A stretch of DNA of 64,000 nucleotides, taken from positions 1 to 64,000 of the forward strand of contig NZ_AULM01000002.1 of assembly GCF_000422285.1 (NCBI RefSeq), given 5' to 3'. The notes under the pieces are model-generated. The model had not been told where the DNA came from and searched no databases. It saw only the letters and a program-made list of their open reading frames with translations. Source of the DNA: Desulfatiglans anilini DSM 4660. Lineage in GTDB: Bacteria; Desulfobacterota; DSM-4660; Desulfatiglandales; Desulfatiglandaceae. The translations under genes were made by a program, and so were the position numbers. This document shows, one piece after another, positions 1-59,885 of this stretch; positions within the stretch are counted from its first letter, which is position 1, and each line of letters opens with the position of its first letter.

Positions 1-110
1 CAGCGCGCGCCGAATGGAAACTAAGCGTTGATCGGGCGGCTGGGTGTGGTTAAAATAGCTTCATACGGGAGTGGAGAAAAGGCTGTTCCCGGCTGGGAGC
101 ATAATAAGAT

Positions 111-336
111 CCATCCGGGAATGATTTCCCGGAAAAACCCGGTTTCCAACCCGGAAATGAGGATTTTCTCGCCACACCCTTCAGGTGCTCAGTCCCAACG
201 CTTTGGCGTGAGGCTGGTCCCGGTTTTTTTCAATATCAAGGAAATCAAGCGTTTGCGCGGAGGCGACCTGCAGGTCGCCGCACAAGCAAACGTGCAGATT
301 GACGCCGAGATTGGCCAAAAAGACCATTTCCGGATG
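111..336 (+). repeat. Dispersed palindromic repeat, copy 1 (with nested cassette)
   Basis: This copy starts with CCATCCGGGAATGATTTCCC and ends with CCATTTCCGGATG, so the outer ends are inverted repeats. The perfect 18-bp palindrome GGCGACCTGCAGGTCGCC lies at 262-279, flanked by GTTTGCG and GCAAACG arms. A nested cassette of about 50 bp (around 170-225, with CACCCTTCAGGTGCTCAGTC) interrupts the left half. It sits upstream of hdrA. Reading frames through it are not genes, because they cross the repeat and have no plausible ribosome binding site. Confidence 0.85.
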
Positions 337-457
337 AAAACAAAATAGCATCGGGGTAAGGTTGATTCAAGCCGTTTTTGGAAGAGGAATGGGGATCAAA
401 GCGGCGTTTTTGCGTGTAAAGACGAGCGGTTCAGCCCGTAGCCGAACCATATTTTGG

Positions 458-4990: not shown

Positions 4991-5115
4991 TTCGTGCTCA
5001 TCGCGATGATTGTCCGGTACGAGCGAGCCTTCCATCCGGAAATGCCATCTCCGGCCTTCCGGTGGTCTGAGATGGGGGCAGCGGCAAAGGGCTGCAAAGA
5101 CGCCGGCTATTTGGC

Positions 5116-5220
5116 GTAACCCAGTTTCCAATCTTGAGACAGGGGCTTTTTGCTCCTATCCAGGAAATCAGGTGTTTGCGCTGAGGCGGCTTCAGGTTGC
5201 CGCACAAACAACCGCGTAGA
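5116..5220 (+). repeat. Dispersed palindromic repeat, degenerate copy 2a
   Basis: This partial copy has recognisable CCAGTTTCCAAT, TCCAGGAAATCAGGTGTTTGCG and GGCGGCTTCAGGTTGCCGC (central stem kept through wobble pairs). It lies directly in front of copy 2b, and the two together separate hdrA from the flxD gene. The left end is unclear; an isolated end motif TCCATCCGGAAATG occurs at 5031-5044. Confidence 0.6.
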
Positions 5221-5228
5221 TGGGTGCA

Positions 5229-5394
5229 CATCCGGAAAGATTTCCCGGGACAACCCGGTTTCCAATCCGGAAATGAGGGGTTTTTGTCAATATCTAAGGA
5301 AATCAGCCACCTGCTTCGAGGCGGCCTTTAGGTCTCCTCACAAGCAGACGTGCAGATTGACGCCGAGATTGGCAAGAAAGACCATTTCCGGATG
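5229..5394 (+). repeat. Dispersed palindromic repeat, copy 2b
   Basis: A nearly complete copy running from CATCCGGAAAGATTTCCCGG to CCATTTCCGGATG, in the same orientation as copy 1. The central stem is partly decayed (GGCGGCC-TTTA-GGTCTCC). Nothing else is visible in the 582-base gap between hdrA and flxD. Confidence 0.8.
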
Positions 5395-5572
5395 AAAAAA
5401 GGATTGACGCCGAGACCGGAAAAGGCCTTTAACGGGAGGGATGGAACCATTGGGTGGGTGCCCGGCTCCCGGTTTCGGCGGGAACGGGGTGCCTTGCCTG
5501 CCATACCAGATCCGATGTTCGCATGGAATATCGTCAACGTATTTACGAATACAGGACCAGGAGAATGCAACA

Positions 5573-17605: not shown

Positions 17606-18289
17606 GTGGTTCCTCCTTGGTTGTTCTGTTGAATGATGTGTCAATTCGGTGTTGGCGCTTTTACCTCCTCGGTATTTGAGGCCCAACTCCGCCGATTCGA
17701 GGCGGGACCCACCTTCCATGAATCTCATGAAACCATAAACGTGTGCTGGGGCGAACGGTGCATCTTTGTGCTGGCAACCGCGCAAATGGACGCAGAGACG
17801 GGCAAAAAGACTCTGTCCGGGTGGAAACCATCGGATGTCGCCGACATAAACGAGCCCTATGAGAGAGAGCTTTGTTTGATCATCCCAGTGGTTCAGGGAA
17901 CGGGTTCCGCAGGTTCACAAGGACGATTCCCTCAGGCCGGAAGGGCGGCGGTTTTGTTTGGCCGGCTTTCCGGCTGTTTCCAGACGATCTTCTGGCCTAG
18001 CCGGGTTCGGCGGCGGCGCGTCCGGGCATAATGACCGCGCACCAAGGTCGAATACCGTCTCGCGAATGGATAAACGGCGCAATTGCCCCGCAAAAGCGCG
18101 GGCTGGATTCGAACACTCGAAAAGCGGGAGCCTTGGTCCAGCGGGTTCCCCTCTGGTTCATGACCGGCCGTTGCTGCTGCGAGTTGCCAGCCGGAAAAGC
18201 AGTCGGCAAAATTATAGAACAATTGAAATTTTAAGGTCAAGCAGTCAGCGTTGTTGAAGGGGTAAGTATTGATTTTGAATAGGAATTGA
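17606..18289. other. Intergenic region between mdh and pyrR
   Basis: The 744-base gap between two divergent genes holds the mdh upstream region, one repeat fragment (17779-17826) and, at the right end, the pyrR promoter. Open frames here lack codon bias and start signals. I see no further feature. Confidence 0.5.
17779..17826 (+). repeat. Fragment of the dispersed palindromic repeat
   Basis: GCGCAAATGGACGCAGAGAC, GGCAAAAAGACTCTGTCCGGGTGGAA matches the right end of the repeat (GCAGATTGACGCCGAGATTG, GCCAAAAAGACCATTTCCGGATGGAA) with several changes. Only about 50 bases are left. Confidence 0.5.
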
Positions 18290-21885: not shown

Positions 21886-22018
21886 AATCCGGAAAGGGCC
21901 TTTTTTGCCGATCTCGGTGTCAAAGTGCAGGTTTACTCTTGCGGCGACCCGGAGGTCGCATCCTTAACAAACGCTTGATTCCCGCTGCATTGGCAGGAAA
22001 ACCTCGTTTCCGGGCCTT
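21886..22018 (-). repeat. Dispersed palindromic repeat, degenerate copy 3
   Basis: Inverse orientation to copy 1. AATCCGGAAAGGGCCTTTTT, GATCTCGGTGTCAA, the hairpin GCGACC-CGGA-GGTCGC (21944-21959) and AACAAACGCTTGATT are recognisable, ending near CCTCGTTTCCGGGCC. The central loop differs from the main version while the stem is kept. The rest of the 21876-22237 gap shows nothing. Confidence 0.7.
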
Positions 22019-22495: not shown

Positions 22496-22554
22496 CCCGG
22501 ATGAGGGAGGCGGGGATAAAGGCCGCCTCTTGGCTCATCTGCGCGAATTCGTTT

Positions 22555-22720
22555 CCATCCGGAAAGGGTCCTTTTTGCCAATCTCGGCGTCAATCTGTAC
22601 GTTTGTTTGTGCGGCGATATAGGTCGCCTCCGCGCAGACGTTTGATTTTCTTGATATGGTCAAAAAATCCTCATTTCCGGATTGGAAACTGGGTAGTACC
22701 GGGAAATCATTTCCGGATGG
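22555..22720 (-). repeat. Dispersed palindromic repeat, copy 4
   Basis: A complete copy from CCATCCGGAAAGGGTCC to CATTTCCGGATGG, inverse orientation. The central hairpin is GGCGA-TATAGG-TCGCC (22613-22628). The right terminal CGGATGG contains the ATG (22717) that is the best start for the next gene. Confidence 0.85.
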
Positions 22721-23871
22721 ACACGAATTCAGTTCACAAGCCTCCGTCGAGGCAGAGGATATTGGACATGCTCTTGGATCAACAGCTTCAGGGAAGAGAT
22801 TTTATCAAACGGCCCACCTGCCCCTTTTGCGGGCTTATGATTGAGCCGCCTAAGGAACTCAGGACCTGCAGGCCTGGTGAAATGCCTGTTGGAACCTGCA
22901 GTTGCGGGGCGGTTTATGCCTGTGATGTCACAGGTCGCCACAGCGGGGAGGCTTTGATCGAGTCTCTGGTTTTCTCCTGTGACATGGACTGGGATTTGGC
23001 CTGGAATCTGCTGCCGGAAGAGGACTACCTGTACGAGATCGTGGACCATTACGACCTCGCAAATCACGTGATCGTTCCGGGGGGTTTCTTCGAGGGGCGG
23101 CGTATTTCCGGGGTTCTTTTTTTCGTTCGGCTGCACAAAGATGTCCTGGAGGTGAGCGCAGACGGCGTCAGGCGAAAAATGGAGGATGCCGTTCCTACCT
23201 TTTACGAGCGCAAGATGCGCAGACGCCCGGTGAAGCGCAGGGTCTCCAAGACGGAACTGGAGCAGCTGGTCCGGGATTTTAACGCCGATGCCCTGATCGA
23301 ACTCGCCCGCGAGGACCCGAAGATCATCCGCATGGTGCAGAGGTTCCTCTACTCGGGGGATCGGCTTTTCAGACAGCGTGCAGCCGATTTGCTGGGTCGT
23401 ATTGCGGCTGTGGTAGGGGAATCTGAGCCAAAGGCGGTTTCGAATCTTCTGCAAAATCTGTTTTACGCGGTTTCGGACACAGCGGCATCGACATGGGGCG
23501 CCTTCGAGGCGATCGGCGAGATCATTGCCCGTAAACCCGACCTTTTTGCCGGTTATATGCCACAGCTCTATCCCTTTCTCACGGATGCGACGCGCCGATC
23601 CCAGACGGTGCAGGCGCTGGCGAGAATAGCAGCCTCCGTCCCTCAGTTGCTGCGCAAGATCACCTTCCACTTCATTCCGCTTTTGAAAGACCCGGACCCG
23701 GAGGTCCGTGGACAGACGGTCAGACTGCTCGGATATCTGCAGGCCAGTGAACTGAAGGACGATATGGTCGAGCTTCTGCCGGATGAACACGAACTCATCC
23801 TTTATGATTCCGGGCGTCTCGAAAGGACGTCTGTCGGAGCGATCGCTGCGGAGGCTCTACGGCGTCTATGA
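22717..23871 (+). CDS. HEAT-repeat protein with N-terminal zinc-binding region (DVU0298-like)
   Basis: A 384-residue protein. The N-terminus has CPFCG...CSCG (four Cys, likely zinc) at about residues 36-68, followed by a region with FSCDMDWDLAWNLLPEEDYLYEIVDHYD. The second half is a chain of alpha-helical HEAT-type repeats (residues 195-380). It resembles proteins annotated as DVU0298 family in sulfate reducers; I am moderately sure of that match, and the function is unknown. The frame remains open back to 22501, but that part lies in the repeat element, so I use ATG 22717 (or the ATG in ILDML at 22768). The stop overlaps the next start (ATGA). Confidence 0.75.
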   Translation: MDTNSVHKPPSRQRILDMLLDQQLQGRDFIKRPTCPFCGLMIEPPKELRTCRPGEMPVGTCSCGAVYACDVTGRHSGEALIESLVFSCDMDWDLAWNLLPEEDYLYEIVDHYDLANHVIVPGGFFEGRRISGVLFFVRLHKDVLEVSADGVRRKMEDAVPTFYERKMRRRPVKRRVSKTELEQLVRDFNADALIELAREDPKIIRMVQRFLYSGDRLFRQRAADLLGRIAAVVGESEPKAVSNLLQNLFYAVSDTAASTWGAFEAIGEIIARKPDLFAGYMPQLYPFLTDATRRSQTVQALARIAASVPQLLRKITFHFIPLLKDPDPEVRGQTVRLLGYLQASELKDDMVELLPDEHELILYDSGRLERTSVGAIAAEALRRL

Positions 23872-29852: not shown

Positions 29853-30155
29853 CATCCGGGAGGGGTCTTTTTGGCGAATCTCGGTGTCGAACTGCAAGGT
29901 TTTTTGGGCGGCGGCTTGCAGGGAGCTTTAGCACAAGCACCCGATTTTACTGAATGGACGAACGGAGATCCGCCGCGAGGCGATGGGACCGAACACCCGA
30001 AGGGTGCGGAGAAACCGGCACCCGCTCCGCAGGGGTGGGACGGAGCACCCGAAGGGTGTGAATAAAAATCCTCATTTCCAGATTGGAACTTGGGTTTCAG
30101 CGGGAAGTCATTTTCAGATTGGAAAATGGTTTCTAGCGGGAAACCGTTTCCGTGC
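29853..30155 (-). repeat. Dispersed palindromic repeat, copy 5, with nested cassette
   Basis: Inverse orientation. The left end TTCATCCGGGAGGGGTCTTTTTGG and right end CTCATTTCCAGATTGGAA...CGGGAAGTCATTTTCAGATTGG flank a decayed centre. A cassette with GGGACCGAACACCCGAAGGG and GGGACGGAGCACCCGAAGGG is present twice. An extra partial right end (30120-30155) follows directly. It fills most of the dsrA-dsrN intergenic region. Confidence 0.75.
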
Positions 30156-34580: not shown

Positions 34581-34674
34581 TTCACACCCTCCGGGTGCTC
34601 GGTCCCACCCCTTCGGGGCGGGTCCCGGTTTCTTCACACCCTCCGGGTGCTCAGTCCCAGCCCTTCAGGGCGGA
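34581..34674. repeat. Two tandem copies of the nested cassette
   Basis: The motif CACACCCTCCGGGTGCTC, followed by GTCCCACCCCTTCGGGGCGGG (first copy) or GTCCCAGCCCTTCAGGGCGG (second copy), occurs twice in direct order, 34581-34632 and 34633-34674. Each contains two small hairpins (CACCCTCCGGGTG and CCCTTCGGGG). It is the same cassette that interrupts palindromic repeat copies 1 and 5. The rest of the 34437-34799 gap shows nothing. Confidence 0.8.
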
Positions 34675-34799
34675 TTATCATCCTGTTGCGCCGAGAAGAA
34701 GCGGAATCCTGCGCATGGGGAACTCGACCCATCCGGTGCGGAGGCGCGCCGAACGGTGCGAACCGGTTCGAAGGGTATACCCCATTTACGGGATGCGAC

Positions 34800-36368: not shown

Positions 36369-36546
36369 CGGTATTTCTCCAGGTTGAGTGAGTTTGGGAT
36401 TCCTCGGGATCCGCCCGGTCTTCGCCCAGCAGAGCGCGTTGGCGCAGGCCGGACCATTCTGCGTCCGGGAATGTTTATCCAGTAGGGACAGGCTTCCAAG
36501 CCGGGATGGGGGTTTTTTCGCCGAAAAGCCCCTGTCCGGACGGAAG

Positions 36547-47857: not shown

Positions 47858-48327
47858 CCTGCATCCTCCGGCTCTTGCCGCCAGGCGTGCAAACGCTGAT
47901 CTTCGCTATAGGTCATCATGCGCATCCTCCATGCTTTTTGCCCGTTTGGAATGACAGGTTTGAACCGTCTCTCGATGAAAAGGTTCACCCGTCGGCCTGT
48001 GTTCGGGAAGCCCGAGCATCGTTTGGCATCCACCTGACGGCTGCCCATGTCGGCGTAGCCGCCGATGCAGCCTGTTTCAAGGATCGAAACAAAGCAACCC
48101 ACAAGGATTCCCTGCATGCTTGATGCCATATCCGGTTCGTCTGAGGATGGGCATGGTGTCAATACGATGCCGGCTGATCGTGCCTGCCTGATCGCAGAGG
48201 GTTTTCCCCGCAACGACGGGTGCAGGGCAAATGCCCGCTTCCAAGAAGGCCTTTCAATCGTCATCTGCCGGGGTTCTGCGTGCCTGATTCCGGGGGGCGT
48301 TTCCCGTTACTGAAATGTAACTCGATT
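47858..48327. other. Gene-poor stretch before repeat copies 6 and 7
   Basis: The only long frame (minus strand, 47854-48264) has unusual composition and no good start, so I do not call it. I see no RNA gene, promoter or terminator here. Confidence 0.4.
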
Positions 48328-48495
48328 CCATCCGGAAATGGTCTTTTTGGCCAATCTCGGCGTCAATCTGCACGTTTGCTTGTGCGGCGACCTGCAGGTC
48401 GCCTCCGCGCAAACGCTTGATTTCATTGATATTGGCCAAAAGTCTTCATTTCCGGATCGGAAACCGGGTTCTACCGGGAAATCATTTCCGGATGG
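48328..48495 (-). repeat. Dispersed palindromic repeat, copy 6 (best preserved)
   Basis: It runs from CCATCCGGAAATGGTCTTTT to CATTTCCGGATGG, so the ends form an inverted repeat. Inward follow TTGGCCAA (48347-48354) and a second TTGGCCAA (about 48432-48439), GTTTGC and GCAAAC arms, and the perfect central palindrome GGCGACCTGCAGGTCGCC (48386-48403). Confidence 0.9.
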
Positions 48496-48732
48496 AATGT
48501 AACTCGTATGCCCATGTGGTATCTTTCCGATTGGATGGGTGGACAGCGGTTCCGGAGACAGGAAGACCGTCTCCGGCTATGGAGCGTGTGCAGAATGGTC
48601 ATCGGCCGAAAGACGTTTCTTTGAAAACAAGGGGGTGACAGGGCCCTGGAATTCTGGCATATTGCAGACACATTGAGCCGGGCCGGGGGTTATGGAAGGT
48701 CGTTGTCACCCGGCCCGGTTCTCACGATCTTT

Positions 48733-48901
48733 CCCTCCGGAAATGGTCTTTTTGCCCAATCTCTGCGTCAATCTGCGCGCTTGCTTGTGCGGCGTACTAT
48801 CCGTACGCCTCCGCGCGACCGCTCGATTTCCTTGATCTTGGCCAAGAATCCCCATTTCCGGATTGGAAACCGGGTTCTACCGGGAAATCATTTCCGGATG
48901 G
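48733..48901 (-). repeat. Dispersed palindromic repeat, copy 7
   Basis: Same orientation as copy 6, about 240 bases downstream of it. The central stem is GGCGTAC-TATCC-GTACGCC (48791-48809), i.e. both arms changed together compared with GGCGACC/GGTCGCC. The right end CATTTCCGGATGG lies 40 bases before a small gene. Confidence 0.9.
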
Positions 48902-48940
48902 ATACGCAATAAACAACCGAATCAGGAGGTTGATGAAACC

Positions 48941-49102
48941 ATGGCTGGACCAAAAGACCCCGATCCTCAGAAACTGGAGGTGCTCAGGCAATTGCCGGTC
49001 GAGATCCTTCGCCAACTGACACGTGAAGAGGTCGCCGCATTCCTGGGCGACGATCCTTGGCCGGATTCTTTACAGGAGAAATTGAAAGACTATCTGATTT
49101 AG
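48941..49102 (+). CDS. Small hypothetical protein, 53 residues
   Basis: The start is ATG 48941 with AGGAGG at 48924-48929. The acidic protein begins MAGPKDPDPQKLEVLRQLPV and ends in EKLKDYLI. It is helical and without Cys or a membrane segment. The good ribosome binding site and the position 66 bases before folE2 favour a real gene, possibly in the same transcript. Family unknown. Confidence 0.6.
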   Translation: MAGPKDPDPQKLEVLRQLPVEILRQLTREEVAAFLGDDPWPDSLQEKLKDYLI

Positions 49103-52070: not shown

Positions 52071-52156
52071 GAACTATTTCCCCTTGCAAATACCATGGCT
52101 TTGTGTTATGCAGCCCGGCTGAAGGGGTTCAAGCTCCCACCTGATTAGAGACGTAT

Positions 52157-52330
52157 CCATCCGGAAACGGAAATGATTTACCGGTAGAACCCGGTTTCCA
52201 ATCCGGAAAGGAAAGTTTTTGGCCAATATCAAGGAAATCAATCGCTTGCGTGGAGGCGATCTACAGGTCACCGCATAAGCAAACGTGCAGATTGATGCCG
52301 AGATTGGCCAAAAAGCCCCTTTCCGGATGG
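52157..52330 (+). repeat. Dispersed palindromic repeat, copy 9
   Basis: A complete copy from CCATCCGGAAACGG to CCTTTCCGGATGG, same orientation as copy 1. The central stem is GGCGATC-TACA-GGTCACC with one mismatch, and the outer arms GGCCAA are present. It ends 78 bases before the atp promoter. Confidence 0.85.
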
Positions 52331-52407
52331 AAACTTGAGATATTCAGCCGGCCTGGATTGGGCTTCAGGTGGAGCTGGAAATCGGTGACCGCAGGCCAAA
52401 AAATGTT

Positions 52408-59168: not shown

Positions 59169-59720
59169 GGTCACGGATTGTTTTTGTTTACTCAAGTTGC
59201 AGGAGCGATGATTTGAGGCAGGATTCTATCTGGGGCGGGGATTGTGATGCCTTTGTTGTGGATTTTTGGCGCATCAACCCTCCAGGTTGCGTAGAACCAG
59301 CCGGCTGCCTGTGCTTGAGGACTGGAATGGGTTGTCCGTTATGCTCCAATCTATGTTGATGATGTCATATTTCAGTTGCAGTGGCCGCCGGTCTTTATTA
59401 ACGTACTGATAAAGACGATCAAATGGTTCCTGCAGCACTCCCCCCTTTCGAAAACATGCCTGTCGTACTGTAAAACCCGCCTGCCCCGCACGGTTTACGG
59501 CTTTTGTAGAGAATGGATTCCCTCTTGTGCGCAGACGATTCCAGTGGTCTGGAAAACGTGAGCCAGTGGGCGTAAAAGAGATTTTATCGCCCAATTCTGG
59601 ACATCCCGTCAGGAACCTGTTTTTCGGGAGGCGGAGTTGGCCGCCTGCCCAGCTTGTTTCTCTCGCGATTTTGACACGCTGTGCCGATGCAATGCTTGAT
59701 TTGCTGGTTTAGTCGCCGTC
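59169..59720. other. Gene-free stretch after zapA
   Basis: No credible gene. A hairpin GTCTTTATTA-ACGTAC-TGATAAAGAC lies at 59391-59416. This is where a 6S RNA would be expected in related genomes, but neither its closing stem nor its central bubble is evident by eye. A minus-strand frame at 59274-59594 has poor codon use. Confidence 0.4.
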
Positions 59721-59885
59721 GAGAAATGATTTCCGGTAGAGCCAAGTGTTCAATCCGGAAAGGATTATTTTTAGCTTATTAGCAAGAAAGCAAGCGTTTG
59801 CGTGGAGGCGGCCTGTAGAGGTCGGCGCACAGGCAAGCCTGCAAATTGACGGGGAGATCGGCCAAAATGGCCATTTCCAGGATAG
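59721..59885 (+). repeat. Dispersed palindromic repeat, copy 10
   Basis: Same orientation as copy 1: GAGAAATGATTTCCGGTAGA at the left, GCGTTTGCGTGGAGGCGGCC in the middle and GGCCAAAATGGCCATTTCCAGGAT at the right. The central palindrome is decayed (GGCGGCCTGTAGAGGTCGGCGC). It lies between zapA and rny. Confidence 0.75.

Follow-up and report, generated by a model that had tools for sequence, protein, structure and literature searches.

The window, a stretch of 64,000 nucleotides, holds many copies of a palindromic repeat, two of them close together at 48,328-48,901, and the changed yet still pairing bases in their stems raise the question of whether the repeat is a folded RNA or cruciform selected for a host function or the trace of a mobile element. 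The comparisons set out below indicate that the repeat is very probably a high-copy type II MITE of about 172 bp, moved by an ISNCY-family DDE transposase at CTARYTAG-like sites with 6-bp target duplications.

Repeat finding, together with a profile search of the window, recovered all eleven copies named in an earlier note on this DNA and two weak pieces in addition, in keeping with its count of at least eleven copies and two fragments in 64 kb and with its statement that both orientations occur. The list of eleven stands, with the correction that 52-bp units have been inserted in some of them, which makes these long forms. The features are as follows:

110..339, minus strand: long-form MITE copy with one 52-bp unit (about 173-226)
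5113..5225, minus strand: degenerate MITE copy, from the profile search
5229..5397, minus strand: older full-length MITE copy, also present in the sister genome
17722..17826, minus strand: degenerate weak MITE fragment, from the profile search (E=6e-5)
21886..22014, plus strand: older MITE copy with the CGGA-loop stem, also present in the sister genome
22545-22550 and 22725-22730: target duplication GAATTC of copy 22551
22551..22724, plus strand: young full-length MITE copy, 22553-22721 in the profile search, an empty site in the sister genome
29850..30119, plus strand: degenerate long-form MITE copy with two 52-bp units
34581..34675, minus strand: two tandem 52-bp units adjoining a fragment of a MITE end
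36462..36526, minus strand: weak fragment of the MITE right end, from the profile search (E=9e-4)
48318..48323, no strand: left 6-bp target duplication TAACTC of copy 48324
48324..48499, plus strand: MITE copy near the consensus (GATTCC...GGAATG), 48326-48497 in the profile search, absent at the matching sister-genome locus
48500..48505, no strand: right 6-bp target duplication TAACTC of copy 48324
48731..48903, plus strand: older MITE copy with the GGCGTAC/GTACGCC stem, also present in the sister genome
51856..52068, minus strand: older long-form MITE copy with a diverged inserted unit
52156..52332, minus strand: full-length MITE copy, from the profile search
59716..59880, minus strand: older MITE copy

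The consensus, oriented as 48326-48497, is TTTCCATCCGGAAATGGTCTTTTTGGCCAATCTCGGCGTCAATCTGCACGTTTGCTTGTGCGGCGACCTGCAGGTCGCCTCCGCGCAAACGCTTGATTTCCTTGATATTGGCCAAAAATCCTCATTTCCGGATTGGAAACCGGGTTCTACCGGGAAATCATTTCCGGATGGAAA. Its first 140 bp form a single long imperfect hairpin, its last ~32 bp repeat the right end, and the element is bounded by the terminal inverted repeats GTTTCCATCCGG / CCGGATGGAAAC. At about 172 bp (up to about 280 bp in the long forms), it is too short for a transposase. The long forms carry one or more tandem 52-bp units, each of which folds into two small hairpins (-26.9 kcal/mol), and such units are also found outside recognisable MITE copies. They occur singly and in tandem, mostly within long forms, at 34581-34675, 173-226, and 30012-30062 of the window and at loci in the sister genome; a similar 52-bp unit is present in locus L253 from another genus, and the unit may be a repeat family of its own.

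The repeat is abundant well beyond the window. The end motif CATTTCCGGATGGAAA, with at most two mismatches, occurs 493 times in the window's own genome (4.67 Mb in 107 contigs) versus twice for a reversed control pattern, which excludes chance. There are 27 copy clusters on one 390-kb contig of this genome and 48 in 400 kb of the sister genome, the closed same-genus genome G001; extrapolated with degenerate copies included, these counts correspond to roughly 320 and 580 per genome, respectively. Copies from these and other genomes were sampled from search matches and chosen stretches. An exact 30-mer scan of a contig collection, which may omit records near the window's own genome, gave no match. 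As to the host, the FolE2 protein encoded in the window matches uncultured Desulfobacteraceae/Desulfobacterales and Deltaproteobacteria MAGs at 80-88% identity.

The copies lie between genes, as the earlier note had claimed for the window. On the host contig, which is 80.6% coding, 22 of the 25 scored copies have their midpoints outside genes (P about 3e-13), the genes being defined by open reading frame length and by third-codon-position substitutions relative to G001, with no gene caller used. The remaining three are the copy at 22553, the weak piece at 17722, which lies at a gene end, and a copy at 231927 in a doubtful 82-aa open reading frame; the first of these is upstream of the real gene start, because in G001 the reading frame is interrupted immediately upstream of where the copy inserted. 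A scan of positions 48200-49000 for promoters and terminators gave one promoter-like and one terminator-like site, neither of them notable against shuffled sequences. The intergenic location would reflect counter-selection of insertions in genes together with a TA-rich target.

The host contig is collinear with G001:2,340,001-2,740,000 at about 94% identity, and many copies are present in only one of the two genomes with clean junctions, giving pairs of empty and filled sites. The copy at 48324-48499 is flanked by two TAACTC hexamers and that at 22551-22724 by two GAATTC hexamers, and one G001 copy lies between two TAACTC hexamers where the window's own genome has the single sequence ATAACTCATTCC. 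At least 5 bp are shared at the flanks of 24 of 53 full copies (mean of 1.9 and maximum of 7 in shuffled data) and at least 6 bp in 16 of them (mean 0.94, maximum 5). In other genera, the corresponding counts are 18 of 22 copies (mean 2.5, maximum 8) and 14 of 22 (mean 1.4). From these flanks, the target is inferred to be a palindromic CTARYTAG-like sequence; insertion at such sites would duplicate the inner 6 bp. Empty sites and flank counts thus show that the element is mobile, that it duplicates 6 bp, and that it has a target preference, and the comparison of insertion sites proposed in the earlier note has yielded both target duplications and empty sites. Most young copies are not common to the two sister species. 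The fit to the consensus is closer for copies restricted to one genome (median of 127.5 bits) than for shared copies (34.2 bits; P=1.7e-4), the latter being counted once per genome; such a difference would be expected from transposition that went on after the separation of the two species.

The enzyme was sought by searching both genomes for PF01609 transposases and then looking for the ends of the element around them. G001 holds three 1.69-kb insertion sequences (L201, L204, and L205), which we take to belong to the ISDol1-like group of ISNCY, with the ends TTTCCATCCGGAAA and TTTCCGGAT(A/G)GAAA; 15 bp are identical between insertion sequence and MITE at both ends. Their 455-aa transposase scores 438.9 bits against the NCBIfam model NF033593 for ISNCY, with a curated cut-off of 325, and also matches Pfam DDE_Tnp_1 and DUF772. 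One of the three copies has a perfect TAAATA duplication, a second has related, non-identical flanking hexamers, and the third has none that can be recognised; the flanks tested for an empty-site comparison of these copies are absent from the window's own genome. A parallel case was found in another genus (G016), where a transposase 66% identical to that of G001 lies in an insertion sequence with the end GTGTCCATCCAGAAATGG and the duplication TAATTA, and MITE copies of the genus g5 begin with the same 18 bp as this end. Outside the ends, insertion sequence and repeat have nothing notable in common, and it is this confinement of the likeness to the ends that makes the repeat a type II MITE (PMC10969869).

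It is therefore no longer the case that no transposase is linked to the repeat, as the earlier note had it, since one with the same ends exists in the sister genome. The same note had set its own reading against a match to a known repeat family with an identified transposase, and such a match has largely been found, although the enzyme is a DDE transposase of ISNCY and not of the REP/RAYT kind. The MITE probably relies for its movement on the transposase of a larger mobile element whose ends match its own; on this evidence, an ISNCY-family DDE transposase would recognise GTTTCCATCCGG / CCGGATGGAAAC and move the element in trans. The assignment rests on the sister genome and G016, because the window's own draft genome holds only a 24-aa transposase remnant, a search for an intact copy of the insertion sequence there having found none. 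A close transposase was likewise not found in most relatives that carry the MITE, and MAGs lose multicopy insertion sequences. This lack of an intact copy in the window's own genome, together with the shortness of the common sequence (only about 15-18 bp per end), would suit a different, unseen transposase as the main enzyme and a coincidental likeness to the ISNCY ends. We consider this improbable, since both ends agree over fifteen bases, the duplications are of the same length and the targets of the same type, and there is a parallel match in another genus.

Because the repeats are palindromic, intergenic, and high in copy number, and because Y1_Tnp proteins are present in these genomes, REP/BIME elements moved by RAYT, a Y1 transposase, also come into consideration. 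REP/RAYT systems have a unit of 20-40 nt and a Y1 transposase and leave no target duplication; Y1 enzymes do not make 6-bp target duplications. The presence of such duplications is the reason for rejecting this reading, which is also hard to reconcile with a 172-bp unit whose inverted-repeat ends are shared with a DDE-type insertion sequence, and we find it scarcely credible.

Several other elements were encountered in this search. Pairs of ends 0.9-3.9 kb apart in the sampled stretches were considered as autonomous elements, and no transposase with matching ends was found in them. Two large insertions in G001 (stretch positions 209727-213508 and 286863-288837) carry transposases and have different ends. 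The first of these, a 3.8-kb insertion at about 2549728-2553508 of G001:C1 that is absent from the window's own genome, encodes a 468-aa integrase-like and a 323-aa ATPase-like protein, resembles a Tn7/Tn5053-type transposon, and has about 6 bp of its flank repeated. The left flank TTGACAAGAGCCCGTTTCATAACAG is common to L004 (G000 contig 53) and to L201/L231 of G001, where part of the L231 flank reads N, and the right flanks differ; this flank abuts the MITE in one genome and a full ISNCY element in the other, as if the two had replaced one another by recombination at the shared end. A relic with about 130 bp of the ISNCY left end (G001:C1:386029-386055, L235) is a possible first step from insertion sequence to MITE. 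In another genus, G007 gave about 200 first-look candidates and one significant match, and a related insertion-sequence end, TGTCCATCCGGAAAAGG, is present in L234; this is perhaps another high-copy MITE family of the same group of insertion sequences.

Among 58 same-genus copies, 28 double changes keep pairing, compared with 8.3 in shuffled data, and 217 single changes break it; a single subfamily change at pair 25-113 accounts for eight of the 28. In a set of 32 copies that spans about 12 genera, 96.8% of cells are paired (90.6% when shuffled), 16 pairs are changed on both sides (8.3 when shuffled and 2-6 for slid structures), and the covariation score is 0.202 versus 0.088, all counts of this kind being inflated by relatedness among copies. 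The covariation between element lineages is real, and covariation over copies, the check named in the earlier note, rises above that of shuffled data among these genera. The claim of compensatory changes thus holds across element lineages; it fails for the GGCGTAC/GTACGCC stem of the copy at 48731, which is the usual stem in other genera and so marks an older subfamily and no local compensatory event. In the sister genome, its ortholog reads GGCGTGC/GTATGCC. The CGGA-loop stem, which had been attributed to the copy at 5229, belongs to that at 21886, and the 5229 copy has a broken stem.

Lineage covariation, the excess of pair-keeping double changes within the genus, and the intergenic location are what one would expect if the repeats were structured RNAs or cruciforms that serve the host and whose folding is selected at each site, which is how the earlier note had read the kept pairing. 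The copies that have stayed in place speak otherwise. In the 11 copies common to both species, divergence amounts to 14.8% in stems and 13.9% in loops, and of 15 double-changed pairs a single one is paired in both species; once a copy has been inserted, then, its stems are no better conserved than its loops, and double changes disrupt the pairing. It follows that transposing lineages maintain the palindrome whereas inserted copies lose it over time, a pattern that speaks against an RNA under selection by the host. GU departures are about as frequent as AC ones (97:79, P=0.2; and 38:30), which lends no weight to an RNA made from one fixed strand and is compatible with RNA from either strand. 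An Rfam search at gathering thresholds gave no match, and the restriction of most young copies to one of the two species also counts against a host function, which we judge very improbable. We read the palindrome as part of how the mobile element itself works and not as the sign of a function for the host at individual sites.

Within the MITE reading, the palindrome would be renewed only in copies that are still transposing: either transposition would benefit from folding or from the symmetry of the arms, or one arm would serve as the template for repair of the other. Arm-to-arm templated repair (quasipalindrome correction or gene conversion) would keep the palindrome of the same MITE with no selection on folding, and it agrees with the pair-keeping double changes seen within single copies and with the lack of strand bias expected of a process at the DNA level. 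Such repair should, however, act on fixed copies too, and these show pair-breaking single changes and almost no pair-keeping double ones; the missing correction speaks mildly against pure arm-to-arm repair. Moreover, the double changes within a copy mostly affect scattered pairs and not consecutive ones. We therefore hold repair by itself to be possible but rather unlikely. An equally tentative suggestion is that transposition itself requires the full-length palindrome, and that the hairpin, acting as DNA, may have an active role in the handling of the MITE by this DDE transposase or by host replication: in element lineages from about 12 genera, both partners of base pairs have been substituted and the fold preserved, whereas inserted copies show no such constraint.

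With these results, an abundant repeat of uncultured relatives of sulfate reducers (Desulfobacterales-like MAGs) can be identified and given a likely enzyme, a rule for its targets, and a structure of copy ages. They also provide an example in which compensatory changes between the copies of a repeat are no proof of a functional RNA: a transposing lineage can acquire covariation that fixed copies lack, and a test on orthologs separates the two. With many copies and presence/absence differences between sister species, the role of MITE palindromes in transposition becomes testable. The points of note are how many copies there are, how cleanly empty sites date them, and the contrast between covariation at the level of lineages and decay at that of copies.

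A literature search of partial coverage found no description of this repeat family, and the known systems nearest to it resemble it in different respects. Like the type II MITEs of bacteria, which have been reviewed (PMC10969869), it is short, gene-free, and intergenic, has inverted-repeat ends and a stem-loop fold, shows target duplications in young copies, and is similar to an insertion sequence at its ends only; its sequence family is new, its G+C content moderate, and its copy number unusually high, only ERIC in Photorhabdus, with 711 copies, being quoted as higher (PMC10969869). ERIC/IRU elements are likewise long intergenic palindromes of 100-200 bp in hundreds of copies, although they belong to a different host group and are likened by description, not by sequence. 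The Chunjie MITE of Geobacter uraniireducens (PMC10969869) shares a host from the former deltaproteobacteria, size variation, and dozens of copies and relics, but measures 235 bp as against about 172 bp and is set apart, by description, from the several hundred copies seen here. BrickBuilt, a MITE of Porphyromonas gingivalis (PMC4596501), contains an internal tandem array as do the long forms, although with a 23-nt unit, whereas here a 52-nt double-hairpin unit occurs in some copies only. REP/BIME-RAYT systems are similarly palindromic, intergenic, and high in copy number, but differ in unit size, target duplication, and enzyme class. With ISNCY insertion sequences (NF033593), of which ISDol1 has been named as a subgroup (PMC8147514), the repeat shares the terminal 15-18 bp, 6-bp duplications, and a CTARYTAG-like target, the insertion sequences coming from the same family of bacteria, and it differs in having neither a transposase nor internal similarity to them. 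The repeat is thus a new sequence family of a known type of element, the type II MITE, and not a conserved functional RNA.
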